Shown piece after piece: positions 32,092 to 46,443 of a DNA stretch of 64,000 nucleotides (its first letter is position 1; every line of letters starts with the position of its first letter). A program made the translations under genes and the position numbers. The notes under the pieces were generated by a model. The model worked only from the letters and a program-made list of their open reading frames with translations, did not search any database and was not told the DNA's origin. The stretch lies in the NCBI RefSeq assembly GCF_038003525.1, contig NZ_JBBOPI010000001.1:673001-737000 (forward strand). The letters run 5' to 3'. The DNA is from Solibacillus sp. FSL H8-0538 (lineage in GTDB: Bacteria; Bacillota; Bacilli; Bacillales_A; Planococcaceae).

Positions 32092-33726
32092 ATGAGAATT
32101 CAACACAATATCGCGGCATTAAACACGCACCGTAACTTAGGTGCCAACCAAACACAATCTGCAAAAAATCTTGAAAAATTATCTTCAGGTTTCAAAATCA
32201 ACCGTGCTGGCGATGACGCTGCAGGTCTAGTAATCTCTGAAAAAATGCGTTCTCAAGTACGTGGTCTTGATATGGCTACAAAAAACTCACAAGATGGTAT
32301 CTCTTTAATCCAAACTGCTGAGGGTGCACTAAGCGAAACTCACTCAATCCTACAACGTATGCGTGAACTAGCTGACCAATCTGCAAACGGAACAAACACA
32401 GCTGCAGACCGTGACGCAATCCAAAAAGAAGTTTCAAACCTTAAAGACGAAATCGACCGTATCGGTAACACAACTGAGTTTAATACACAAAAATTATTAG
32501 ACGGTAACTTGAAGTCTGCTGGTGGTGTATCAGTAGGTCAAAACCAAACAATTGGTGCTCAAGTAGCGAAATTAACGAACGGTAATGTTACAGGTAGTGG
32601 TACTATTACTTCTGGACTAAATATATTAAGTGGTGGAAGTGCGGAATTTAAAGAAGAAACAATTAAAATCGATGGTACAGATATTAAAGTAAATTGGGGT
32701 TCTTTAACGCAAGATGAAAAAAATACACTGACAGGTGTCGGCACTGATGCTACTTCTCGTGGCAAAGCAGCCGAGTTAATTGTGAACAAAATTAATGAAG
32801 CGATTGATGCTCAAGGTGGACCAGTAGAAAAAATTTCTGGCTATATCGATGGTTCTGGTAATTTAGTTCTTGAGAGTGGTTCGGAAGGTATTGATTCTGA
32901 AATTACAGTGACTGCTGGTGGTATCGTGGGACACGCATTAGGTTCAGCTGCAGCAACGGGTACTTCTACAGCTGGTACGACTAACTATAATGGTTCAACA
33001 GTAGCTTCAGGTGAAAAGTTTACTGTTGAAATTAACGGCGCAACAATGACAGCTCAACTGGGTTCGGGTATTACTACTGGTATGTCGATGGCATCAGGTG
33101 CAGCGCTTCTTGAGTCTGCTATTAATGGTGCTATTTCAGGGGCGAATACGAGTGCAGGAGCAACACAAGCTGGTGACCCTGGCTATATAGCGAAAGTGAA
33201 AGTAAATGTAACGGATGATGGACGTTTTGAAATTACGAGTGAAACAGGTCCTGTAAAAATCAGCGATAAAACAGGTAAAACAGCAGTAAAAGATTTAGGC
33301 TTAACAGATGCTCAAACATCTGCTTCTGGAAATGGTGGTATGACACTACAAATTGGTGCTAATAAAAATCAATCTTTAACATTTGGTATTGCTGATATGC
33401 GTTCTGCATCATTGGGTGTGACAGGGGTTAATGTATCATCAGCTGCTGGTGCTCAAAATGCACTTGAAACATTAGATAAAGCAATTGCAAAAGTTTCTGA
33501 CCAACGTGCAAGCCTTGGTGCGGTACAAAACCGTCTTGAGCACACTATCAACAACTTAGGTGCGACTTCAGAAAACCTAACAGCTGCTGAATCTCGTATC
33601 CGTGATGTTGATATGGCAAAAGAAATGATGGAATTCACTAAAAATAACATCCTAACGCAAGCTGCTCAATCTATGTTAGCTCAGGCTAACCAACAACCAC
33701 AAGGTGTACTACAATTATTAGGTTAA
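32092..33726 (+). CDS. hag: Flagellin with a large variable domain
   Basis: A 544-residue flagellin, about twice the length of B. subtilis Hag. Residues 1-165 are the conserved D0/D1 rod ([20 protein letters not shown], then [20 protein letters not shown]). Residues about 455-544 are the C-terminal rod ([20 protein letters not shown], then [20 protein letters not shown]). In between lie nearly 300 residues rich in Gly, Ser, Thr and Ala, a surface-exposed D2/D3 region with many possible O-glycosylation sites. This fits the glycosylation genes that follow. AAGGAGG precedes the ATG; a terminator follows. Confidence 0.96.
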
Positions 33727-33839: not shown

Positions 33840-36620
33840 GTGATCGAAAAAAAAATAGAGATGTTGGATAGTAAGATAAATCTCCCAATTATTCAAGTAG
33901 AGCATGAGGGGCATATGCTGCCAATACATAGTAAATACAATCCAATAGCTGAAGCGGAGCGATTAATCGATTCTTATGCAGAACAAATCGAACAAGCTGA
34001 CCATATATTTTTCTATGGCGTTGGCTTAGGCTATCATGTAAAAATAACTCAGGAGCGCTATCCAGAAAAAATGATTTCGACATATGAACCAATTGCAAAT
34101 GTACACAAAGTATTTGCAGAAAATGCAAAAAAAATTGGTGTCAACGTGGTCGATATTGTTAATCAATATATAGAATACACAGAAGATGATATAATAAAAA
34201 ACTTGACTCAATTTAAACCATATTTTGCACAGCGTATAGTAATATTAATTCATCCTGTATATGGGAAAATAGCTCAAGGTCAATTTAAACAATTTTCAGA
34301 TATTTTTCAGCAGTTTATTCAGGATACACGATTCAATACACAGACAAAGCTAGTATTTAATGATCGCTGGGTCATTAATATGATTATGAATGCGCAATGG
34401 ACTTTAAATACACCGAATATTTTAGCTCAATCGAATAATCCTTTTAAAGGGAAACCAATAGTATTAGTAGCTGCAGGTCCATCGCTTTCTGAGGAAATAG
34501 ACAATTTGCGTTATATTAAAGATCGAGGTTTAGCTTTTATTTTTACTGTTGGATCAGCAAATGAAGTGTTAATTAAGCAAAGTATTTACCCTGATGCTGT
34601 GTTGTCCTATGATCCAGGGGATGACAATTATACAGTATTTATGGAGCTAGTTAAGCAAAATATAAAAGATATACCTCTTATTTTTGGAACAACTGTAGGG
34701 CATGAAACTGTACCAATGTTTCCAGGACCTAAAATACATATGGTAATGAATAGGGATAAATTTTCGCTGTTCTTACATGATGAACTTTTTGAAACTATCA
34801 ATGATTCTGGGACAATTTCAAATGTAACATTGCAATTAGTAGCAAAACTAAATGTGAGCCAAGTTATATTAGTTGGACAAAACTTCGCCTATAAGAAAGA
34901 TGCATTTTATGCAAAAGGAATTAAAACATATGATGACAAGCGTTATATTGATAGCATATTGCAAAAAATCGAATTAGGTGAGACATTTTATGTAGAGGAT
35001 GTACATGGTGGACAAGTACAAACTGAGCAAGGGTTTAATCAAATGCGTCGTGAAATGGAGTTTTATATTCAACAAATGTCAAACCTAAAGATAGTTAATA
35101 CGACACAAGGAGGGGCAAAAATTGAAGGCACAGTATTTCAATCCTTAAAAGAAGTGATTGATACGGAGCTAACTGATAAAGCAGTACTAACAAAATGGTG
35201 GGAGCAGTTAGAGCAACCTACAAAAATAGTAAATACTAAATTGGTCGAAAAGATGAAAAAAGCCTCTGTTGAGTATCGATTATTATATAATGATATGATG
35301 GATATATTAGAGAGACTTGAAAAAAAACATGACTCTACAAATGGCAAGCAAATTAATCAATTGTTGGATAAAATGTATAAATTATTAGGTAAATTAACGA
35401 AAAACCTGCTGTTTGAGCTTATTTTTTCTCCGATAATGAGTGTACATACAGAACGTATTTATTCGAATTTAACATTATGTCAACGAATGAGTGATAATAG
35501 TGAAAAAATAAAGAAAGTTATTAAAATTTACCGTGAATATATGCTGATTACTTTAGATATTTACCGGAGTATCAATCCGGTTATACAACTACAGCTATTA
35601 CCACAAATCGAAAATAAGGAGCGGTGGAAATATTACGAATCGATATGTGGTGTTGTACATTATGAAGGAGATTGGAAGAAAAAGTCGTTCCTGCGAAAGG
35701 AGCCTAAGGGTGAGATAGTTAGCTATGGTGCAAGTGCAGAAACTACACAGTCTGGTGCAATATTTCACTTCAAATTTACAGGCACTGCCTTACAACTATT
35801 AGGTACAAATGCTGTGAAATCTACATTAAAATTAAAAATAACAATTGACCGACAAGAAAAATTAGTTTCTGTTTTTGAGTATATTGATGAGAAGTTCACT
35901 ACATTCCACCAACAAATTTTATTTGAAACTTCAAAGCTTTCAGAAGGAATGCATGAGGTGACAGTAGAAATTTTATCAAATGAAGTGCATTTCAATTTAC
36001 TAGGCATCCGAGTTAACAATGAAAATCGAGCTTATCATATACATGAAGTAGAAAAAATAGGGGAATTAGTAGTAGGTAAATGCATTCGCTGTCATTATGA
36101 AGCTAGTTTTAATACCCTTGGTGAGTTTACGAGGGCAGGAGAAGAAAGCGGAGAATATTTATCATCTAGCACATTGTCAAATCCAAATGGGGATTTTTAT
36201 TTCATTATGGTCAATGATAGTAATGGAGAAAAGATATTGATTGCAGACCGAGTATTACAAAATAGAATAAGTAAAACTGCCATAGTGGATAAGGAAATTA
36301 TATTGTGTAGTAACAAAGCTGGAATTTCTTTATTGACTAGTTCTGTAGACTTGGAGAAAAGCGAGTGGGATCAATATTTAGCATCAAAGCAAAATATTAG
36401 AAATAATAATCTACAATGGAATGCCGATTCTTTTTCAGCAAGCTGGGTGGAGGATGTTGATAAGACTGACAAAGAACAATTCCTTCTTCGAGGTAGTTAT
36501 CTAGGTGATGATGGGTCCATTAACATGGATGATGGTTTAGAACACAGGACAATTAACTTATCTTCTGAGGCGATGAAAATGACTGGTTATAGACCTAAAT
36601 TGGTGATCTACAGTATATAA
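33840..36620 (+). CDS. Maf-type flagellin glycosyltransferase with extra C-terminal domains
   Basis: A 926-residue protein. Residues about 1-590 resemble motility accessory factors (Maf, with the MptE-like/DUF115 domain around residues 195-430). Marks include FYGVGLGYHVKITQERYPEK near residue 57, then KPIVLVAAGPSLSEEIDNLR near residue 204 and YPDAVLSYDPGD near residue 250. Maf proteins move nonulosonic acids from CMP-sugar to Ser/Thr of flagellin before export. Residues about 600-926 are unusual. First comes a beta-sandwich segment (GAIFHFKFTGTALQLLGTNA, then LSEGMHEVTVEIL), then one resembling phage or surface beta-modules (VGKCIRCHYEASFN, then GDFYFIMVNDSNGEKILIAD). Start GTG, with AGGGGG upstream. 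It heads the glycosylation island. Confidence 0.8.
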   Translation: MIEKKIEMLDSKINLPIIQVEHEGHMLPIHSKYNPIAEAERLIDSYAEQIEQADHIFFYGVGLGYHVKITQERYPEKMISTYEPIANVHKVFAENAKKIGVNVVDIVNQYIEYTEDDIIKNLTQFKPYFAQRIVILIHPVYGKIAQGQFKQFSDIFQQFIQDTRFNTQTKLVFNDRWVINMIMNAQWTLNTPNILAQSNNPFKGKPIVLVAAGPSLSEEIDNLRYIKDRGLAFIFTVGSANEVLIKQSIYPDAVLSYDPGDDNYTVFMELVKQNIKDIPLIFGTTVGHETVPMFPGPKIHMVMNRDKFSLFLHDELFETINDSGTISNVTLQLVAKLNVSQVILVGQNFAYKKDAFYAKGIKTYDDKRYIDSILQKIELGETFYVEDVHGGQVQTEQGFNQMRREMEFYIQQMSNLKIVNTTQGGAKIEGTVFQSLKEVIDTELTDKAVLTKWWEQLEQPTKIVNTKLVEKMKKASVEYRLLYNDMMDILERLEKKHDSTNGKQINQLLDKMYKLLGKLTKNLLFELIFSPIMSVHTERIYSNLTLCQRMSDNSEKIKKVIKIYREYMLITLDIYRSINPVIQLQLLPQIENKERWKYYESICGVVHYEGDWKKKSFLRKEPKGEIVSYGASAETTQSGAIFHFKFTGTALQLLGTNAVKSTLKLKITIDRQEKLVSVFEYIDEKFTTFHQQILFETSKLSEGMHEVTVEILSNEVHFNLLGIRVNNENRAYHIHEVEKIGELVVGKCIRCHYEASFNTLGEFTRAGEESGEYLSSSTLSNPNGDFYFIMVNDSNGEKILIADRVLQNRISKTAIVDKEIILCSNKAGISLLTSSVDLEKSEWDQYLASKQNIRNNNLQWNADSFSASWVEDVDKTDKEQFLLRGSYLGDDGSINMDDGLEHRTINLSSEAMKMTGYRPKLVIYSI

Positions 36621-36662: not shown

Positions 36663-37640
<978 letters not shown>

Positions 37641-37674
37641 TCACTGACTACATTTTTTTTAAGGAGAACATACG

Positions 37675-38832
37675 ATGAGAGATTCCAATTTACCATATGG
37701 CAAGCAATGGCTAGATGATGCCGATATAGAAGCAGTAGTAAATGTGTTGAAAAGTGATTATTTAACAACAGGTCCTGCAATTCAAAAATTTGAAGAGAAG
37801 TTTTCAAATTATGTAGGGTCAAAATATTCTGTAGCTTTTTCGAATGGAACTGCGGCTTTACATGGTGCTTGTTTTGCCGCTGGGATTGGCGAGGGTGATG
37901 AAGTTATTACAACACCGATGACATTTGCAGCAAGTGCAAACTGCGTGCGTTATGTAGGCGGAACTATTGTATTTGCAGATATTGATGAAAAAACATACAA
38001 TATCGATCCCATTGAGGTGGAGAAAAAAATTACTGCAAAAACAAAAGCTATCATCCCTGTGCATTTTACTGGACAACCTGTTGATCTAGATGCCATTCAC
38101 CAGTTAGCAAATGAGTTTCATCTAGTAGTTATTGAAGACGCTGCACATGCATTAGGTGCTTCATATAAGGGGCGGAAAATTGGTGCACTTAGTGATATGA
38201 CAATGTTTAGCTTCCATCCAGTCAAGCATATTACTACTGGTGAAGGTGGCATTATATCGACGAACAATGAGGAATATTATCAAAAATTGCAGCAGTTCCG
38301 TTCACATGGGATCACAAGAGATAAAGATAAAATGACTAAAACAGAAGGAGCATGGTACTATGACATGCAGTTTTTAGGTTATAATTACCGCATGACAGAT
38401 ATTCAGGCAGCACTCGGTGTTAGTCAGATGTTGAAATTAGAAGGCTTTGTGGAAAGGCGCAAAGAAATTGTTAAGCAATATAATGAAGCATTTGCTGATA
38501 TAGATGGAATCATTACACCATATCAAAGTACTGAATGTGATTCCAGCTGGCATTTATATATTATTCAATTAAGGTTAGAAAAGTTAAAGGTTACACGAAA
38601 GGTGATTTTTGATACTCTTCAGAATAAAAATATCGGAGTAAATGTTCATTATATTCCTGTACATAAGTTAAGTGCGTATAAAAATATCGGTTATAATAAG
38701 GAAATCCTTCCAAAAGCCGAGGCATTGTACGAAGGTATTATTACATTGCCATTATTTCCGGCAATGGTTGAACAAGATATAAAAGATGTTATTAAAGCAG
38801 TAAAAGAAGTTATTCAATATTATTCAATATAA
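37675..38832 (+). CDS. pseC: UDP-4-amino-4,6-dideoxy-AltNAc transaminase, PseC
   Basis: A 385-residue PLP enzyme of the DegT/DnrJ/EryC1 family. It aminates the C4 keto group made by PseB, using glutamate. Start: SNLPYGKQWLDDADIEAVVN. Also seen are SNGTAALHGACFAAGI, VVIEDAAHALGASYKG, and SFHPVKHITTGEGG with the catalytic Lys. AAGGAG precedes the ATG. The product has a free 4-amino group, which in the standard pathway PseH acetylates; no pseH is seen here. Confidence 0.92.
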   Translation: MRDSNLPYGKQWLDDADIEAVVNVLKSDYLTTGPAIQKFEEKFSNYVGSKYSVAFSNGTAALHGACFAAGIGEGDEVITTPMTFAASANCVRYVGGTIVFADIDEKTYNIDPIEVEKKITAKTKAIIPVHFTGQPVDLDAIHQLANEFHLVVIEDAAHALGASYKGRKIGALSDMTMFSFHPVKHITTGEGGIISTNNEEYYQKLQQFRSHGITRDKDKMTKTEGAWYYDMQFLGYNYRMTDIQAALGVSQMLKLEGFVERRKEIVKQYNEAFADIDGIITPYQSTECDSSWHLYIIQLRLEKLKVTRKVIFDTLQNKNIGVNVHYIPVHKLSAYKNIGYNKEILPKAEALYEGIITLPLFPAMVEQDIKDVIKAVKEVIQYYSI

Positions 38833-38846
38833 AGGAATTAGTCTAA

Positions 38847-39728
38847 ATGAAACTTGCATTGGGAACAGTTCAATTTGGAATGGATTATGGCATTACCAAT
38901 TCAGAAGGAAAGACCTCCTTTCAAGAAATAGAGAGTATTTTAAGATTTTCACATGAACAAGGTATAGTACTTTTAGACACTGCTCCTTCATATGGTGATA
39001 GTGAAAAGGTATTGGGAGGGAATTCCTTAAATGACTTTGATGTTATTACCAAAACCCCATATATTAAAAATGAGGTAATTGCGAAAAGTGATATTGAGGA
39101 AATTGAGGAAGTATTTTATCAATCTTTAGAAAATTTAAATGTAGATTCATTATATGGCTTATTTGTGCATCAAACAAAAGATATGTATAAAGAAGGTTCA
39201 GATAAATTATACGAAAAAATGCTCGATTTTAAAGAAAGAGGAATTGTTCAAAAAATTGGTGTATCTATATATGAAAAATCAGAAATCACAGATCTATTCA
39301 ATCGGTATAAATGGGATATGGTTCAGATTCCAGTTAACGTCTTAGATCAAAGGTTGATAAAAGATGGAACACTATCTGAGTTAAGTGATAAGGGTATTGA
39401 GATTCATGCTCGTTCAATTTTTTTACAAGGTTTACTTTTAACAGATTCCTTTAAACTGGAAAGTCGATTTAAGAGTGTCAATAAATATCTCGCTCAATAT
39501 TATAATGATTTACATTTAATTGGTATGACAAAAATAGAAGGTGCATTAAACTATATTAATGAGATATCAGAGATTGATTATGCTGTAATTGGAGTAAATA
39601 ATTTGCTGCAGTTAAAGGAAATATTACTAGCCTATAAAAGGATTAACAATGATAATTCTTTTAGAATTGATTATTCTAATTATGCTGTAGTTAATGAAAA
39701 TATTATAGATCCTAGAAAATGGGGATGA
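38847..39728 (+). CDS. Aldo/keto reductase family protein
   Basis: A 293-residue TIM-barrel oxidoreductase. Start: KLALGTVQFGMDYGITNSEG. The catalytic tetrad is visible as Asp and Tyr in DTAPSYGDSEKVLG, Lys in DVITKTPY and His in LYGLFVHQTKDM. Such reductases are frequent in nonulosonic-acid and spore-coat sugar clusters beside SpsF-like cytidylyltransferases, but the reaction is usually unassigned. Here it follows pseC by 14 bp and precedes the cytidylyltransferase by 4 bp. It may reduce a keto group on a variant sugar. Base composition is clearly AT-rich. Confidence 0.8.
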   Translation: MKLALGTVQFGMDYGITNSEGKTSFQEIESILRFSHEQGIVLLDTAPSYGDSEKVLGGNSLNDFDVITKTPYIKNEVIAKSDIEEIEEVFYQSLENLNVDSLYGLFVHQTKDMYKEGSDKLYEKMLDFKERGIVQKIGVSIYEKSEITDLFNRYKWDMVQIPVNVLDQRLIKDGTLSELSDKGIEIHARSIFLQGLLLTDSFKLESRFKSVNKYLAQYYNDLHLIGMTKIEGALNYINEISEIDYAVIGVNNLLQLKEILLAYKRINNDNSFRIDYSNYAVVNENIIDPRKWG

Positions 39729-39732
39729 AGAG

Positions 39733-40482
39733 ATGAATTTAGCTATTCTTCAAGCACGCATGTCATCAAGTAGGCTGCCTGGTAAAGTTATGAAGCTATT
39801 ATTGGGTAAACCCATGCTTCTTAGACAAATAGAACGAATTAAGAGAAGTAATGGAATTGATGCTTTAATCGTAGCAACAACAACAGAAGTGGAGGATGAT
39901 GAGATAGCATTTATGTGTAAAGAAAATAACATTCTATGTTATCGTGGGAGTTTGGAAAACGTATTAGATCGTTTTTATAAAATTTCAATTAAATACCAAC
40001 CAGATAATATCATACGTCTGACGGGTGACTGTCCTCTAATTGATCCAGATATTATTGATAAGGTTATTGAATGTCATTTAAATAATGGAAATGATTATAC
40101 AAGTAACATTATTCCACCTACGTTCCCAGATGGTTTAGATACGGAAGTGTTTACAGTAAATGCACTTGAAAAAATATATAATGAGGCTAATCGACCATCA
40201 TTAAAGGAGCATGTAACTTTATATGTTAATGAGAATCCGTATCTATTTAAGAGAGAAAATGTAGTAAATACAGTAGATTTATCCCTCCATAGATGGACGG
40301 TGGATGAGCAGGAAGACTATGAATTAGTATGTAGAATTTATGAGAATTTATTTCCGGAAAATCCGAATTTCAATATGCATGATATATTACATTTTTTAGA
40401 GGATTACAAAGAATTACAAAAAGTGAATGCAATTTTTACGAGAAATGAAGGGTTGACAAAATCGCTTCAACGAGAAAAATAG
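39733..40482 (+). CDS. SpsF-like cytidylyltransferase, candidate CMP-pseudaminate synthetase
   Basis: A 249-residue nucleotidyltransferase of the SpsF/COG1861 kind. Start: NLAILQARMSSSRLPGKVMK, the CTP-binding loop. Also seen are NIIRLTGDCPLIDPDIIDKV with the metal-binding Asp near residue 98, and VDLSLHRWTVDEQEDYELVC. It is the only cytidylyltransferase in the island, so it is the best candidate for activating the product of PseI to the CMP-sugar (the PseF role). Classical PseF/NeuA proteins belong to a different COG, so the assignment is inference from context. Confidence 0.7.
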   Translation: MNLAILQARMSSSRLPGKVMKLLLGKPMLLRQIERIKRSNGIDALIVATTTEVEDDEIAFMCKENNILCYRGSLENVLDRFYKISIKYQPDNIIRLTGDCPLIDPDIIDKVIECHLNNGNDYTSNIIPPTFPDGLDTEVFTVNALEKIYNEANRPSLKEHVTLYVNENPYLFKRENVVNTVDLSLHRWTVDEQEDYELVCRIYENLFPENPNFNMHDILHFLEDYKELQKVNAIFTRNEGLTKSLQREK

Positions 40483-40511
40483 ATATCGCTTATAGAAAGA
40501 AGTTGGATTGA

Positions 40512-41801
40512 ATGTCTAGAACATACGAACAGTCAGAATTAATTTTAGAGAGAGCAAAAAAATCTATTCCACTTGGTGCTCAAACATATAGCAAAAGTAT
40601 TACTCAGTTGCCGTACGGTGTTTCGCCTTACTTTGCTAGCCGTGGTGAAGGAGCATATTTATATGATGTTGATGGAAATAAGTACATTGATTTTATAAAT
40701 AGTCAGGCGGCAATTACTCTGGGATATAATAATTCAGAAGTTAATCTTGCTGTCAAAAATCAATTAGAAAACGGTTCTATTTTTTCTTTGTCCCATTCAC
40801 TTGAAACAGAAGTAGCTGAAAAAATAATAGAAATGGTACCTTGCGCGGAAATGGTTCGTTTTGGTAAAAATGGTTCTGACGCTACAGCAGGTGCTGTTAG
40901 ACTAGCACGTGCCTATACAAGTAGACAATATATAGCTGTGTGTGGTTACCATGGATGGCAAGATTGGTATATTGGCTCTACAACTAAGGATTTAGGGGTG
41001 CCTGATGCCGTTAAAGAATTGACATTAACATTTGAATATAATAATTTGAATTCATTACAAAAGTTATTTGAAAAATATCCAAATCAAATTGCAGCAGTGA
41101 TTATAGAACCAATGAATGTTAAGGAGCCAGAGCCAGGATTTTTAGAAGAGGTTAAAACTATAACGCACCAAAATGATGCCATATTAATTTTTGATGAAAT
41201 GATTACAGGATTTAGATTTGCAAATGGAGGAGCTCAAGAATACTTCGGAACAATACCTGATTTAGCCACTTTTGGCAAGGGATTAACTAATGGATTTCCT
41301 TTATCAGCTATAACAGGTAAAAAGGAAATTATGATTTTAATGGAGGAAGTTTTCTATTCTTTTACATTTGGAGGTGAAACGCTATCATTAGCGGCAGCAC
41401 TTGCAACTATGAATAAATTACAAAGAGAACCCGTTTTAGAAGCTATTAAACAAAAAGGTATTAAAGTAATAGAAACTGTTTCTAAGATAATCGATCAATA
41501 TAAATTAACTGATGTGTTATCAGTTTCTGGACATCCAAGTTGGTCGTTTTTAAATATTAAGGATACTGAACATTATTCTAGTTATGAAATTAAAACATTC
41601 TATATGCAGGAAATGTTTAAAAGAGGAATTTTAGCTTATGGTACGCACAATATTAGCTATGCTCACTCAGAAGCGGATTTAAATCAGTTATTTACTGCAT
41701 ATGATGAAATTTTGGAGAAGTTAGCTTTATATTTAGAATCAAATTCTCTATTAAAATATTTAGATTGCGAACCTCTAGTTCCATTATTTAAAGTAAGGTA
41801 A
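40512..41801 (+). CDS. Class III aminotransferase (glutamate-1-semialdehyde aminomutase-like)
   Basis: A 429-residue PLP enzyme. Seen are IPLGAQTYSKSITQLPYGVS near residue 16, NGSDATAGAVRLARAYTSRQ, AAVIIEPMNV, LIFDEMITGFRFANGG (PLP-ring Asp), and FGKGLTNGFPLSAITG with the catalytic Lys. It resembles HemL/GsaB in layout but lies in a sugar cluster between the cytidylyltransferase and a methyltransferase, so a keto-sugar or a small amino donor is a more likely substrate than tetrapyrrole precursors. With the aldo/keto reductase and SpsF-like protein it forms a trio seen in many nonulosonic-acid loci (from memory). Confidence 0.75.
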   Translation: MSRTYEQSELILERAKKSIPLGAQTYSKSITQLPYGVSPYFASRGEGAYLYDVDGNKYIDFINSQAAITLGYNNSEVNLAVKNQLENGSIFSLSHSLETEVAEKIIEMVPCAEMVRFGKNGSDATAGAVRLARAYTSRQYIAVCGYHGWQDWYIGSTTKDLGVPDAVKELTLTFEYNNLNSLQKLFEKYPNQIAAVIIEPMNVKEPEPGFLEEVKTITHQNDAILIFDEMITGFRFANGGAQEYFGTIPDLATFGKGLTNGFPLSAITGKKEIMILMEEVFYSFTFGGETLSLAAALATMNKLQREPVLEAIKQKGIKVIETVSKIIDQYKLTDVLSVSGHPSWSFLNIKDTEHYSSYEIKTFYMQEMFKRGILAYGTHNISYAHSEADLNQLFTAYDEILEKLALYLESNSLLKYLDCEPLVPLFKVR

Positions 41802-42012
41802 ATTTGACCCTTAATAGATTTTCTGGAGTTTTTATTACCTTATGCTATTGCAGCATAGCACAGTTGAGGTGCTTACGTTTTGACTGAGTCTAAAGTATGC
41901 ACCTCTACTATCCACGGGTTTAATTTCTGAATAATCTAACTACAAAAGAGATGTAGGTTCCTTCCTGTATATTTAAATATGTATAAGGGGAAAAGAATTA
42001 AAGGAGGAAATT
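41802..42012 (+). other. Noncoding spacer inside the glycosylation island
   Basis: No frame is open here. It holds a weak inverted repeat, AGGTGCTTAC (41859-41868) and GTATGCACCT (about 41894-41903), without a T-run, and ends with AAAGGAGG before the next gene. It may hold an internal promoter. Confidence 0.4.
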
Positions 42013-42657
42013 ATGAGGAATTTTCAAAAAGAAATATTTCTTGAATCTGAAGGTGATAAGTGGTATTTGAGAAATAATATGAAATTAGTCAATGAAATTG
42101 AAATGAATTTTTATTCGAAATTTCTTTCTGATGGAAAAAAAATCTTAGAAATTGGATGTTCTAATGGCACAAAATTAGATTTCCTAAGACAAAGATATAA
42201 TTGTGAATTTTTTGGAATAGATCCTTCTTCTGAAGCCGTTGAAATAGGGAGTAAAAAATTTCCTGGAATTATTTTAAATATAGGTACAGCAGATAATTTG
42301 AATTTTGAAGATGAATTTTTTGACTTCGTAATATTTGGATTTTGTTTTTATTTGATTGATAGGGATTTAATTTCTAAAGTTGTTGCAGAAGCAGATAGAG
42401 TTCTTAAGAATAAAGGATATTTAGGAATAACAGATTTTGATGTTAAAATACCACAAACGAGAGAGTATAGTCATTTTGAAGGAGTGAAAACATTTAAAAT
42501 GGATTATTCGCAATTATTTCTAACATATCCTCATTTTGTTCTTGCGGATAAATGTTGTTACTCCCATAATTCGGACCTTTTTGTTGATGACATAAATGAA
42601 AGGGTTAGTTCAGTAGTTTTATACAAAGATCATAGTGGAGCATATTCCTTAATATAA
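42013..42657 (+). CDS. Class I SAM-dependent methyltransferase
   Basis: A 214-residue methyltransferase. The SAM site KILEIGCSNGTKLDFLRQRY is near residue 48, followed by FFGIDPSSEAVEIGSKKF (acidic residue for ribose) and FDFVIFGFCFYLIDRDLI. The fold is complete in length. In the island it could O- or N-methylate the nonulosonic acid or its precursor, but the substrate is not visible from sequence. AAAGGAGG precedes the ATG. It is among the most AT-rich genes in the window, suggesting separate acquisition. Confidence 0.75.
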   Translation: MRNFQKEIFLESEGDKWYLRNNMKLVNEIEMNFYSKFLSDGKKILEIGCSNGTKLDFLRQRYNCEFFGIDPSSEAVEIGSKKFPGIILNIGTADNLNFEDEFFDFVIFGFCFYLIDRDLISKVVAEADRVLKNKGYLGITDFDVKIPQTREYSHFEGVKTFKMDYSQLFLTYPHFVLADKCCYSHNSDLFVDDINERVSSVVLYKDHSGAYSLI

Positions 42658-42674
42658 AGAAAAGGTATCTAAAG

Positions 42675-43697
42675 ATGAATATATTTATTAGAGTAGATGC
42701 TTCAGTAGAACTTGGAACAGGGCATTTGATGCGCTGCTTAACACTAGCAAACAGAATAAAAAAAGAAGGTAAAGAAGTTTCCTTTATTTGTCGTAGAGCT
42801 AAAGGGGACTGTATTCAATTAATAAAGGATAATGGTTTTGAAGTTTATACGCTACCTGCCGTAGAATTATCATTATGGGTTTATGCAAAAATAGAGTGGC
42901 AAATAGATGCTACACAAACTATCGAGATTTTACGTAAATTTAATGTTCAGCAAGTTGTGGTTGATCATTATTCATTAGATGAAAAGTGGGAAAAACAAAT
43001 TCGTCCTTTTACAAAGGAAGTTATGGTCATTGATGATTTAGCGAATCGCCCACATGATTGTGATTTACTGCTAGACCAAAATTATTATTTGAATATGGGG
43101 TCACGGTATAATGGATTAGTACCATCGCATGCAAAGTTGTTACTGGGGCCACAGCATGTCCTTTTACGTGAGGAATTCAAAGAGGCAAGAAAGTACATTA
43201 AGCCTTTTAATGGAAAAGTAGAGAGACTATTTATTTTCTTTGGTGGGAGTGATCCTACAAATGAAACAGAAAAGGTACTTCGAGCTATTAAGCCACTGGT
43301 GCAAAAGTATCGATTAAAAGCAGATGTTGTTGTTGGCAATACTAATCCTAAAAAAGAAGTGATTGAAGCTTTATGTACTGAAATAACTGGAGTTTCATAT
43401 CAGGGTCAAATTAATAACATGGCAGAGTTAATGGCAAGAGCTGATTTAGCTATCGGTGCAGGCGGTGCGACAACCTGGGAGCGTATTTATTTACAATTAC
43501 CAAGTATTGTTATTACAGTTGCTGATAATCAAATTGAAATTGCGAAAGCTGTTCATTTCAAACAGCTGTGCTTCTATTTAACTCATTATAGTGAGGTTTG
43601 TCCTTATATGATTAGTGATTTTTTAGAGTATATACTATATTCACCTAAATGTATTGAAAATAGTATTTTGAATATGCATAATTTTATTATTAATTGA
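42675..43697 (+). CDS. pseG: UDP-2,4-diacetamido-2,4,6-trideoxy-altropyranose hydrolase, PseG
   Basis: A 340-residue GT-B-like hydrolase that removes UDP from the altrose intermediate. Start: NIFIRVDASVELGTGHLMRC, with the catalytic His in GTGH. VVDHYSLDEKWEKQIRPFT and VIDDLANRPHDCDLLLDQNY follow. The nucleotide-binding part has FIFFGGSDPTNETEKVL and the loop AIGAGGATTWERIYLQLPSI. The length and ending show no fused acetyltransferase domain of the PseH type. AAAGG is upstream. It is followed after 12 bp by the formyltransferase. Confidence 0.88.
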   Translation: MNIFIRVDASVELGTGHLMRCLTLANRIKKEGKEVSFICRRAKGDCIQLIKDNGFEVYTLPAVELSLWVYAKIEWQIDATQTIEILRKFNVQQVVVDHYSLDEKWEKQIRPFTKEVMVIDDLANRPHDCDLLLDQNYYLNMGSRYNGLVPSHAKLLLGPQHVLLREEFKEARKYIKPFNGKVERLFIFFGGSDPTNETEKVLRAIKPLVQKYRLKADVVVGNTNPKKEVIEALCTEITGVSYQGQINNMAELMARADLAIGAGGATTWERIYLQLPSIVITVADNQIEIAKAVHFKQLCFYLTHYSEVCPYMISDFLEYILYSPKCIENSILNMHNFIIN

Positions 43698-43709
43698 GGT
43701 ATGGTATAG

Positions 43710-44294
43710 ATGAATATTTTGTATTTGGGTCCGTTAAGTTCTAATTTTTTTAACAATTTAAAGAGTTTTTCAGATAATATAATTCAAACTGAAGAACGTA
43801 TAACAATTGAATTTTTAAAAAAACATTCTATTGAATTGATAGTAAGCTATGGGTATAGACATATTATATCTAAAGAATTAATTGGATTTATGAAGAATAG
43901 AATTGTTAATCTTCATATTTCATATTTACCTTGGAATCGAGGGGCAGATCCTAACTTTTGGAGTTTTTTAGAAAATACTAAAAAAGGGGTAACTGTTCAT
44001 TTAATCGATGGAGGTATTGATACTGGACCAATTATTGTACAAAAAGAAGTAACTTTCTCACATAATATAACTCTTCGCCAAAGTTATGCTATCCTTTCTA
44101 ATGAACTTGAAAAACTCTTTTTTGAGAATTGGTCAAATATTCGAATAGGGAATTTTGAAGCAGTCCCTCAAAATTTTGAGATAGGAAATATACATTTTAT
44201 TAAGGATAAAAAGAAATATGAACATTTATTAACAAACGGTTGGGATACACCTGTTTCAAAACTGAATGAATTGAGGCCAAAAAATGAAATTTGA
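43710..44294 (+). CDS. Sugar N-formyltransferase-like protein (Formyl_trans_N)
   Basis: A 194-residue protein with the catalytic core of N10-formyl-tetrahydrofolate-dependent formyltransferases. The Asn-His pair lies in NLHISYLPWNRGADPNFWSF (near residues 70-72), and the Asp in VTVHLIDGGIDTGPIIVQKE. It is short, without the C-terminal domain of Fmt, as in sugar formyltransferases. It sits between pseG and pseI and overlaps pseI by 11 bp. In that slot it may formylate the 4-amino group of UDP-4-amino-4,6-dideoxy-AltNAc, taking the place of PseH; this is inference. Confidence 0.75.
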   Translation: MNILYLGPLSSNFFNNLKSFSDNIIQTEERITIEFLKKHSIELIVSYGYRHIISKELIGFMKNRIVNLHISYLPWNRGADPNFWSFLENTKKGVTVHLIDGGIDTGPIIVQKEVTFSHNITLRQSYAILSNELEKLFFENWSNIRIGNFEAVPQNFEIGNIHFIKDKKKYEHLLTNGWDTPVSKLNELRPKNEI

Positions 44295-45327
44295 AACGTC
44301 GTTATTAACGAATTCAACACAGCCATTTATTATCGCAGAAATGTCTGGAAATCATAATCAATCATTAGAACGTGCGTTAGAAATTGTTGATGCCGCAGCT
44401 AAAGCAGGAGCTCATGCATTAAAAATTCAAACCTATACAGCTGATACACTAACACTCAATATTGAAACTGAAGATTTTATGATTCGTGATGAAGACAGTT
44501 TGTGGGAAGGTAAGTCATTGTATGAATTATATGGAGAAGCCTATACACCATGGGAATGGCATAAGCCAATTTTTGATCGTGCGAAGGAATTAGGTATGAT
44601 TGCGTTTAGTACACCTTTTGATGATACAGCTGTTGATTTTTTAGAGTACCTTGAGGTGCCATTATATAAGATTGCTTCATTCGAGAATACCGATTTACCA
44701 TTGATTAAAAAAGTTGCTTCAACTGGGAAACCTATGATTGTATCAACTGGTATGGCTACAGTTGCAGAACTTTACGAATTAGTAACTACAGCAAAAGCAG
44801 CGGGATGTAAGGATTTGATATTACTGAAATGTACGAGTACGTATCCTGCTACACCTGAAAATACGAATATCTCTACAATCCCACATATGCGAGAGTTATT
44901 TGATGTACAGGTTGGCTTATCAGATCACACGATGGGGACGGGCGTTTCTGTTGCTGCAGTTGCATTAGGTGCTACCGTAATTGAAAAGCATTTTACACTA
45001 AATCGTGCTGATGGTGGCGTCGACTCTGCTTTTTCAATGGAGCCAACAGAAATGCAGTCACTAGTAGAAGAAACTAAACGGGCATGGCAGGCAATTGGTA
45101 AGGTTAAATATGGTCCTACTGAAAAGGAAAAATCATCATTAAAATTCCGTCGGTCACTTTATGTTTCAGAGGATCTTAGAGCAGGTGATTTTTTTACAAA
45201 CGATAATGTGAAAATTGTTCGACCGGGCTACGGATTAGAGCCTAAGTATATTGAAAGTGTTCTAGGTAAGAAAGCAAAAACGGATATTGTAAGAGGTACA
45301 CCACTTAATTGGAAACTGCTAATATAA
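44284..45327 (+). CDS. pseI: Pseudaminic acid synthase PseI
   Basis: A 347-residue NeuB-family enzyme that condenses the altrose derivative with PEP. The TIM barrel begins PFIIAEMSGNHNQSLERALE and includes AGAHALKIQTYTADTLTLNI, then IVSTGMATVAELYELV and VIEKHFTLNRADGGVDSAFS. The C-terminal SAF (antifreeze-like) domain starts near residue 283 (SLYVSEDLRAGDFFTNDNVK). The AEMSGNHN variant points to PseI rather than NeuB or LegI. It overlaps the upstream gene, implying coupling. Confidence 0.93.
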   Translation: MKFETSLLTNSTQPFIIAEMSGNHNQSLERALEIVDAAAKAGAHALKIQTYTADTLTLNIETEDFMIRDEDSLWEGKSLYELYGEAYTPWEWHKPIFDRAKELGMIAFSTPFDDTAVDFLEYLEVPLYKIASFENTDLPLIKKVASTGKPMIVSTGMATVAELYELVTTAKAAGCKDLILLKCTSTYPATPENTNISTIPHMRELFDVQVGLSDHTMGTGVSVAAVALGATVIEKHFTLNRADGGVDSAFSMEPTEMQSLVEETKRAWQAIGKVKYGPTEKEKSSLKFRRSLYVSEDLRAGDFFTNDNVKIVRPGYGLEPKYIESVLGKKAKTDIVRGTPLNWKLLI

Positions 45328-45357: not shown

Positions 45358-46443
45358 ATGGCTATAACTGAAAGTATCAATATTCCAGCACACCATAATA
45401 TATACAATGGACAAAATGAAAGGAATTTACGAATTGATTTTGCAATTCCTGAAAAAGGAACTAATGCAGAGACAGGTATTTTTGTTTTTGTACCGGGCTT
45501 TGGAGGTCATATTGATTCGAATGTATATAAAAAAATGCGTGAACAGTTTGCTGATTTATATAATATGGTTACTGTTCAGTGCGAGTATTTTGGTAGCCAA
45601 TTTATGCAGAGTACGGAAGAGTTTACGTTGAAAGATGGATATTCATCACTAGCAAATATATTTTTAGAGGAAGAAATTAAACAAATTAAAAATAATTTTG
45701 CTGATTTTATACCGTTATTATCAAATAAAACCGTGAATTTCCCTGTGCTTGCGAAGTTAGGTGAAAGTACGGAAGAGTTTGTAGATATGGGTTATATGCA
45801 GGCAATAGATGTTATCACATCTATTGAAGCAATCCAAATTATTCTAAAGGAAAATGTATTAGCATACGATGAAAATCGAGTAATAGGGTTTGGTCAATCC
45901 CAAGGAGCCTATTTATTGCATCTTTGTAATCGATTAGTCCCGCATTTGTTTTCTCAAATTATTGATAATGCTGCGTGGGTATCACCTGTTTATTTATACT
46001 CTAATCGTTGGCTTTATAAACAACTAAATAATGCAACATTATGTATTGAATTCGACTACATAGCAAAAAATATTATAGAGGATAAAAAGGCGTTATCTTT
46101 ACATGAGTTATACAAGCGTTTTAAAAATGGCGCTTATATTTATTCTTGTATTGGTACGACTGATAATTTAGTAAATGTACAAGATAAACGAAGTAGCTTA
46201 AGTAAATTGAACTATGTTAAATTTGAAGTGATTGACAGCAAAAAAGTAGACGGCATTATTTTTAAATCAACGAATCATGGTTTAGATGCAGATTTTATAC
46301 AACTGGTTGATTATGTATTTAGTCAAAAATCTACTCATCTTAATAAAAATAAAAAACGTATACAATATGATGTTGTTAGTTCGAAAACGAAAATACATGT
46401 AGATTATAGTTATGGTTTACCTTTATTTCAGTTTGTTGATTGA
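45358..46443 (+). CDS. DUF2920 family predicted alpha/beta hydrolase
   Basis: A 361-residue protein with an alpha/beta hydrolase pattern: FVFVPGFGGHIDSNVYKKM near residue 41 (oxyanion loop), and a nucleophile elbow GFGQSQGAYLLHL with Ser in GxSxG near residue 180. A late His is in STNHGLDADFIQLVDYV. The same kind of protein (DUF2920, the 617 family of Campylobacter) occurs in flagellar glycosylation loci (from memory), function unknown. It could trim acyl groups from the sugar or the glycoprotein. GAGGTGAGA precedes the ATG. Last gene of the island, followed by a terminator. Confidence 0.7.
   Translation: MAITESINIPAHHNIYNGQNERNLRIDFAIPEKGTNAETGIFVFVPGFGGHIDSNVYKKMREQFADLYNMVTVQCEYFGSQFMQSTEEFTLKDGYSSLANIFLEEEIKQIKNNFADFIPLLSNKTVNFPVLAKLGESTEEFVDMGYMQAIDVITSIEAIQIILKENVLAYDENRVIGFGQSQGAYLLHLCNRLVPHLFSQIIDNAAWVSPVYLYSNRWLYKQLNNATLCIEFDYIAKNIIEDKKALSLHELYKRFKNGAYIYSCIGTTDNLVNVQDKRSSLSKLNYVKFEVIDSKKVDGIIFKSTNHGLDADFIQLVDYVFSQKSTHLNKNKKRIQYDVVSSKTKIHVDYSYGLPLFQFVD

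Follow-up and report, generated by a model that had tools for sequence, protein, structure and literature searches.

A pseudaminic acid gene cluster of Solibacillus sp. FSL H8-0538 with a probable pseJ formyltransferase gene in the place of pseH

The window analysed here is a stretch of 64,000 nucleotides from a contig of Solibacillus sp. FSL H8-0538 (NZ_JBBOPI010000001.1). It harbours a pseudaminic acid cluster (36669-45327), preceded on its 5' side by genes for a flagellin and a Maf-like protein (Table 1). The first-pass annotation of this sequence had reported pseB, pseC, pseG and pseI, and all four products indeed score above their NCBIfam equivalog cut-offs. It had also described a Formyl_trans_N protein encoded between pseG and pseI, which we recovered: its gene is separated from pseG by 12 bases and shares 11 bases with pseI. 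The cytidylyltransferase does not reach the cut-off of the PseF equivalog TIGR03584 (28.7 vs 205.7 bits), and we infer its role as PseF from its PF02348 match and from the position of its gene. By analogy with other Maf proteins, the Maf-type protein is probably a glycosyltransferase. A FlaG-like gene, with a match below cut-off (94.8 of 107 bits), is found 3' of the cluster. Together with the flagellin and Maf/MptE-like genes on the 5' side, it supports a role of the cluster in flagellin glycosylation. Relatives of the DUF2920 protein with 50-55% identity are found in the pse neighbourhoods of three other genomes of the family (G034, G128 and G154).

Table 1. Features of the pseudaminic acid cluster and its surroundings (positions in the window)
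Feature	Position	Strand	Evidence
Flagellin, likely glycan acceptor	32092..33726	+	PF00669 E 1.1e-46; PF00700 E 1.2e-32
Maf-type (MptE-like) protein, probable flagellin nonulosonate glycosyltransferase	33840..36620	+	PF01973 E 5e-32
pseB, UDP-GlcNAc 4,6-dehydratase (inverting)	36669..37640	+	TIGR03589 546.4 bits (cut-off 407.75)
pseC, C4 aminotransferase	37675..38832	+	TIGR03588 517.4 bits (cut-off 423.5)
Aldo/keto reductase	38847..39728	+	PF00248 E 3.3e-20
CMP-sugar cytidylyltransferase, probable pseF	39733..40482	+	PF02348 E 4.3e-37; below TIGR03584 cut-off
Class-III (glutamate-1-semialdehyde-type) aminotransferase	40512..41801	+	PF00202 E 9.9e-56; NF004856 417.3 bits (below cut-off 486)
SAM methyltransferase	42013..42657	+	PF13649 E 3e-15; weak match to Pse methylase TIGR03587, 36.9 bits (below cut-off 112.05)
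pseG, UDP-sugar hydrolase	42675..43697	+	TIGR03590 317.6 bits (cut-off 153.55)
pseJ (by homology), sugar N-formyltransferase in place of pseH	43710..44294	+	PDB 6ci2 E 5.2e-59; PF00551 E 1e-18
pseI, pseudaminic acid synthase	44284..45327	+	TIGR03586 521.5 bits (cut-off 340.25)
DUF2920 protein	45358..46443	+	PF11144 E 2.9e-15

The formyltransferase is a protein of 194 residues. Its best PDB matches using phmmer are entries named 'formyltransferase PseJ' (6ci2, 6ci4, 6ci5 and 6edk), with an alignment that is near full-length (residues 3-187) and 93 identities over 185 aligned residues with 6ci2. The catalytic Asn-His-Asp set noted in the first-pass annotation corresponds to N67, H69 and D104; it is the same in all four aligned sequences, those of the window protein and three relatives, and is also visible in the alignment with 6ci2. 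The next-best solved relatives are formylation domains of linear gramicidin synthetase (5jnf, 5es5 and others; E about 6e-34), which belong to a peptide synthetase with chains of at least 587 residues, whereas the window protein is stand-alone and encoded in a sugar cluster. The housekeeping enzymes PurN and Fmt were considered and rejected, with scores of 58.0 and 58.6 bits below the respective cut-offs of 150.1 and 201.5, PseJ being far closer. By homology, the gene is thus pseJ, a new example of a named enzyme with solved structures. A plasmid search returned two records, with matches of 71-80% of the query.

By definition, PseJ formylates UDP-4-amino-4,6-dideoxy-L-AltNAc with N10-formyl-THF. 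The structures are attributed to Reimer and colleagues (ACS Chem Biol, 2018), who worked on the enzyme of Anoxybacillus kamchatkensis; 6ci2 is reported to be that enzyme, which reportedly formylates the product of PseB and PseC in vitro. PseJ reportedly does so en route to 7-formamido pseudaminic acid, in agreement with the 5-N-acetyl-7-N-formyl product predicted in the first-pass annotation. The PseH route to Pse5Ac7Ac is that of Campylobacter and Helicobacter. The window cluster shares with it PseB, PseC, PseG, PseI and the order of the reactions, and differs from it by a formyl rather than an acetyl step and by having no PseH above the TIGR03585 cut-off. From the PseJ systems of the PDB entries it may differ by its additional genes for an aldo/keto reductase, a class-III aminotransferase and a methyltransferase.

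According to a title cited in PMC7281560, Pseudoalteromonas distincta was the source of a 7-formamido pseudaminic acid described in 2001. The flagellin glycosylation islands of Geobacillus also resemble the window cluster: types II-IV harbour PseC, PseF, PseG and PseI without PseH, and type III has the formyltransferase gene fmt2 in both strains (PMC5109656). The authors of that paper left the role of formylation open. In the open-licence literature, subscription journals being outside the scope of the search, neither a PseJ formyltransferase nor names of the Pse5Ac7Fo type gave a match. With an enzyme named in four PDB entries and a 7-formamido sugar from 2001, the chemistry is already known. 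Since its best matches are the named, structurally solved PseJ, the window gene is a further example of a known variant.

We then considered whether PseH might be encoded elsewhere. The first-pass annotation had seen no GNAT-type acetyltransferase in the window and no fusion of one to PseG. Both observations hold: a PseH profile derived from the proteins of 28 relatives found no match at E <= 1e-3 among the open frames of at least 50 residues in the window, which rules out a PseH fused to PseG or located elsewhere in the window, and the TIGR03590 model spans residues 1-292 of the 340 of PseG. The genome-wide search for pseH that the annotation had proposed gave 24 matches to TIGR03585 in the 3.93-Mb, 99.96% complete genome, none of them above the cut-off (best 60.6 vs 93.1 bits). 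At the same loose threshold, TIGR03585 has matches in 14 of 14 control genomes, and above the cut-off in one of them; thus, such sub-cut-off matches represent background. With the relatives' PseH profile, the eight top genomic matches score 21-83 bits. Over-cut-off PseH proteins of the relatives score 212-271 bits, values inflated by the use of nearly all those sequences to build the profile. Six of the top eight genomic GNATs were scanned, and models of spermidine, ribosomal-protein or other acetyltransferases match them about equally well or better, with none over cut-off. The gene of the highest-scoring one (L001, 83 bits) is ~1.9 Mb away from the cluster.

To place the cluster in its family, 200 genomes including that of the window were compared. 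Formyltransferase matches at E <= 1e-10 are present in 187 of them. Near full-length matches with about 48% identity or more (E 6e-59 or better) are limited to five, the window's own included; the next match has an E value of 3e-16, and the remaining ones are mostly partial. The four relatives with a PseJ-type protein are Lysinibacillus fusiformis ATCC 7055 (G150/L101), L. antri (G179/L100), Viridibacillus arvi (G005/L146) and a Lysinibacillus MAG (G183/L099). PseG was found above cut-off in 44 genomes and PseH in 28, all within those 44. Among the PseG-positive genomes, 28 have PseH, five have PseJ and none has both (hypergeometric P 0.004, relatedness ignored). The other 11 have neither PseJ nor an over-cut-off PseH (G036, G070, G091, G098, G128, G130, G138, G149, G154, G173 and G185). 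In two of these, G149 (L185) and G138 (L190), other genes follow pseG; in G149 these are a NeuB-like gene (32% identity to PseI), followed by a small frame which, judged by eye, resembles hexapeptide-repeat acetyltransferases.

The neighbourhoods of all 44 PseG-positive genomes were compared, some of them ending at contig ends. The order pseF-pseG-X-pseI is found in eight clusters in which X is a PseH of at least 217 bits (G144, G146, G072, G034, G103, G083, G089 and G088), and in five clusters in which X is PseJ, those of the window (G000), G179, G150, G005 and G183. In relatives with this gene order, the position between pseG and pseI is thus occupied by PseJ in some and by PseH in others. 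In the remaining 20 PseH-positive clusters, PseH is encoded elsewhere in the neighbourhood. G035 has about 1 kb of unassigned sequence between pseG and pseI. In G128, a weakly matching GNAT (PseH profile, 81 bits) and another gene stand in the position of X; weak GNATs follow pseG in G036 (58 bits) and G091 (60 bits), and a GNAT of 82 bits is encoded upstream of pseF in G154. Given such in-cluster scores, to be compared with that of L001, the PseH cut-off may miss a divergent PseH. More distant formyltransferases (26-36% identity) are present in 10 of the 44 clusters (L193, L195, L198, L201-L205, L208 and L211), seven of which also have an over-cut-off PseH. A formyltransferase in such a cluster therefore need not replace PseH.

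The first-pass annotation had pointed out that PseG would have to accept the formyl intermediate. In a maximum-likelihood tree of the 44 PseG proteins, the five PseJ-type rows do not separate from the nine PseH-place rows, G128 among the latter, but interleave with them. Three changes are needed for each of the two labels, and the starred branches force three. Shuffled labels gave equally low numbers in 61 and 66 of 500 cases, so that neither label is clearly clustered. We considered a PseG specialised for the formyl intermediate, and the tree does not split the two groups. As the PseGs of the two kinds are intermixed, the enzyme probably accepts the formyl as well as the acetyl group. The interleaved tree fits repeated exchanges between pseJ and pseH without specialisation of PseG. 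The base composition gives a weak indication that the end of pseG and pseJ were swapped together as a cassette: the GC content is 27.4% for pseJ and 20.3% for the last 123 bases of pseG (43575-43697), vs 35.7% for the first 900 bases of pseG and 37.7% for pseI. The sign is weak because the methyltransferase (27.4%) and aldo/keto reductase (29.1%) genes are likewise AT-rich.

Outside the family, genome contigs were scanned and yielded 157 relatives; the best 80 were retained as PseJ-like loci. These are 3.3 to 20.6 kb long, and absence of a gene from the short ones says little. Counting up to 10 kb of flanking sequence, as far as the contig extends, PseI is encoded in 56 of these best 80 loci and PseG in 36; PseI is at most 1.2 kb away in 50 only, which counts against the replacement of PseH by PseJ. 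PseB, PseC, PseG and PseI are all encoded in 22 of the 80, and none of these 22 loci has a match of at least 100 bits to the PseH profile. Nevertheless, a strong PseH (170-186 bits) is found in four of the best 80 loci, which refutes a strict mutual exclusion of PseJ-like proteins and PseH. It is a separate gene in L172. In the other three, a single frame codes for a PseJ-like formyltransferase and a PseH-like GNAT (170-173 bits; L114:1712-2830, L121:5888-7345 and L162:9953-11101), and these fused proteins are possible bifunctional acyltransferases. Eight more of the best 80 loci have weaker matches to the PseH profile (20-80 bits; L102, L124, L126, L132, L133, L145, L159 and L175), and L102, L124 and L133 belong to the 22 loci with PseB, PseC, PseG and PseI. 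L145:1156-2307 is a candidate for a weaker fusion of the same type (20.5 bits).

Gene content, the homology to PseJ, the lack of an over-cut-off PseH and the same-place exchange with PseH in relatives were directly observed. The last three support the view, put forward in the first-pass annotation, that formylation takes the place of the acetylation by PseH, at what becomes N7 of the final sugar. The catalytic steps, the final sugar and its acceptor are predicted from the genes. Very probably, PseJ formylates the C4 amine in PseH's stead, leading to Pse5Ac7Fo on flagellin. In this pathway, PseB and PseC would generate UDP-4-amino-4,6-dideoxy-L-AltNAc, and PseJ would formylate the C4 amine with N10-formyl-THF as the donor, where PseH would add an acetyl group. 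PseG would then remove UDP, PseI would condense the sugar with phosphoenolpyruvate, and the cytidylyltransferase would produce CMP-Pse5Ac7Fo, from which flagellin would receive the sugar via the Maf protein.

The three additional genes at 38847-42657 may code for enzymes that modify the sugar further. No match to the aldo/keto reductase or the class-III aminotransferase was found in the 43 other PseG neighbourhoods, and the methyltransferase has a single one there (32% identity, in G149). Of 261 genomes of the order that were searched, only that of the window has a match to the aldo/keto reductase at E <= 1e-35, and the 260 others have none. Among the best 80 PseJ-like loci, matches to the reductase and the aminotransferase were found in 10 and 15, respectively. 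Oxidation of C8 followed by amination has a precedent in 8-amino-Kdo synthesis. A more elaborate proposal, which we regard as rather unlikely as a whole, is that the reductase oxidises C8, the class-III aminotransferase aminates it and the methyltransferase adds a methyl group, yielding a 7-formamido-8-amino (methylated) derivative on flagellin, with pseH and pseJ behaving as a cassette that can be swapped between a conserved pseG and a conserved pseI. The gene combination is already in print, since a table in PMC3694923 describes a Legionella O-antigen cluster with a GNAT, PseG, a glutamate-1-semialdehyde aminomutase, a cytidylyltransferase, an aldo/keto reductase, DegT and CapD.

In an alternative scenario, the formyltransferase would act on another amine, created by the aldo/keto reductase and then the class-III aminotransferase, with an unlinked GNAT acetylating C4. 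Several points speak for it: there is a second aminotransferase gene in the cluster, none of the other 43 clusters compared harbours this aminotransferase or the reductase, the genome holds 24 sub-cut-off matches to the PseH model, and seven of the 44 clusters combine a distant formyltransferase with PseH. We nevertheless consider it highly improbable. G150, G179 and G005 have PseJ orthologues with 48-64% identity at this very position, and their 18.9-kb neighbourhoods contain neither the reductase, nor the class-III aminotransferase, nor any match above 45 bits to the PseH profile; in addition, six of the best genomic GNATs fit models of other acetyltransferases as closely as PseH, or nearly so, or better. 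Dual use, with both 7-formyl and 7-acetyl forms made and a sub-cut-off GNAT acting as PseH, would find support in the three fused proteins and in the G128 GNAT, which scores no higher than L001, but it is at least as improbable, as the window has no PseH-like frame and L001 is encoded so far from the cluster.

Formylation by PseJ in place of acetylation by PseH thus remains our favoured reading. PseJ-type clusters are now on record for relatives in Lysinibacillus and Viridibacillus, and the exchange of PseH and PseJ at one site provides a simple genomic rule to predict formylated pseudaminic acid.
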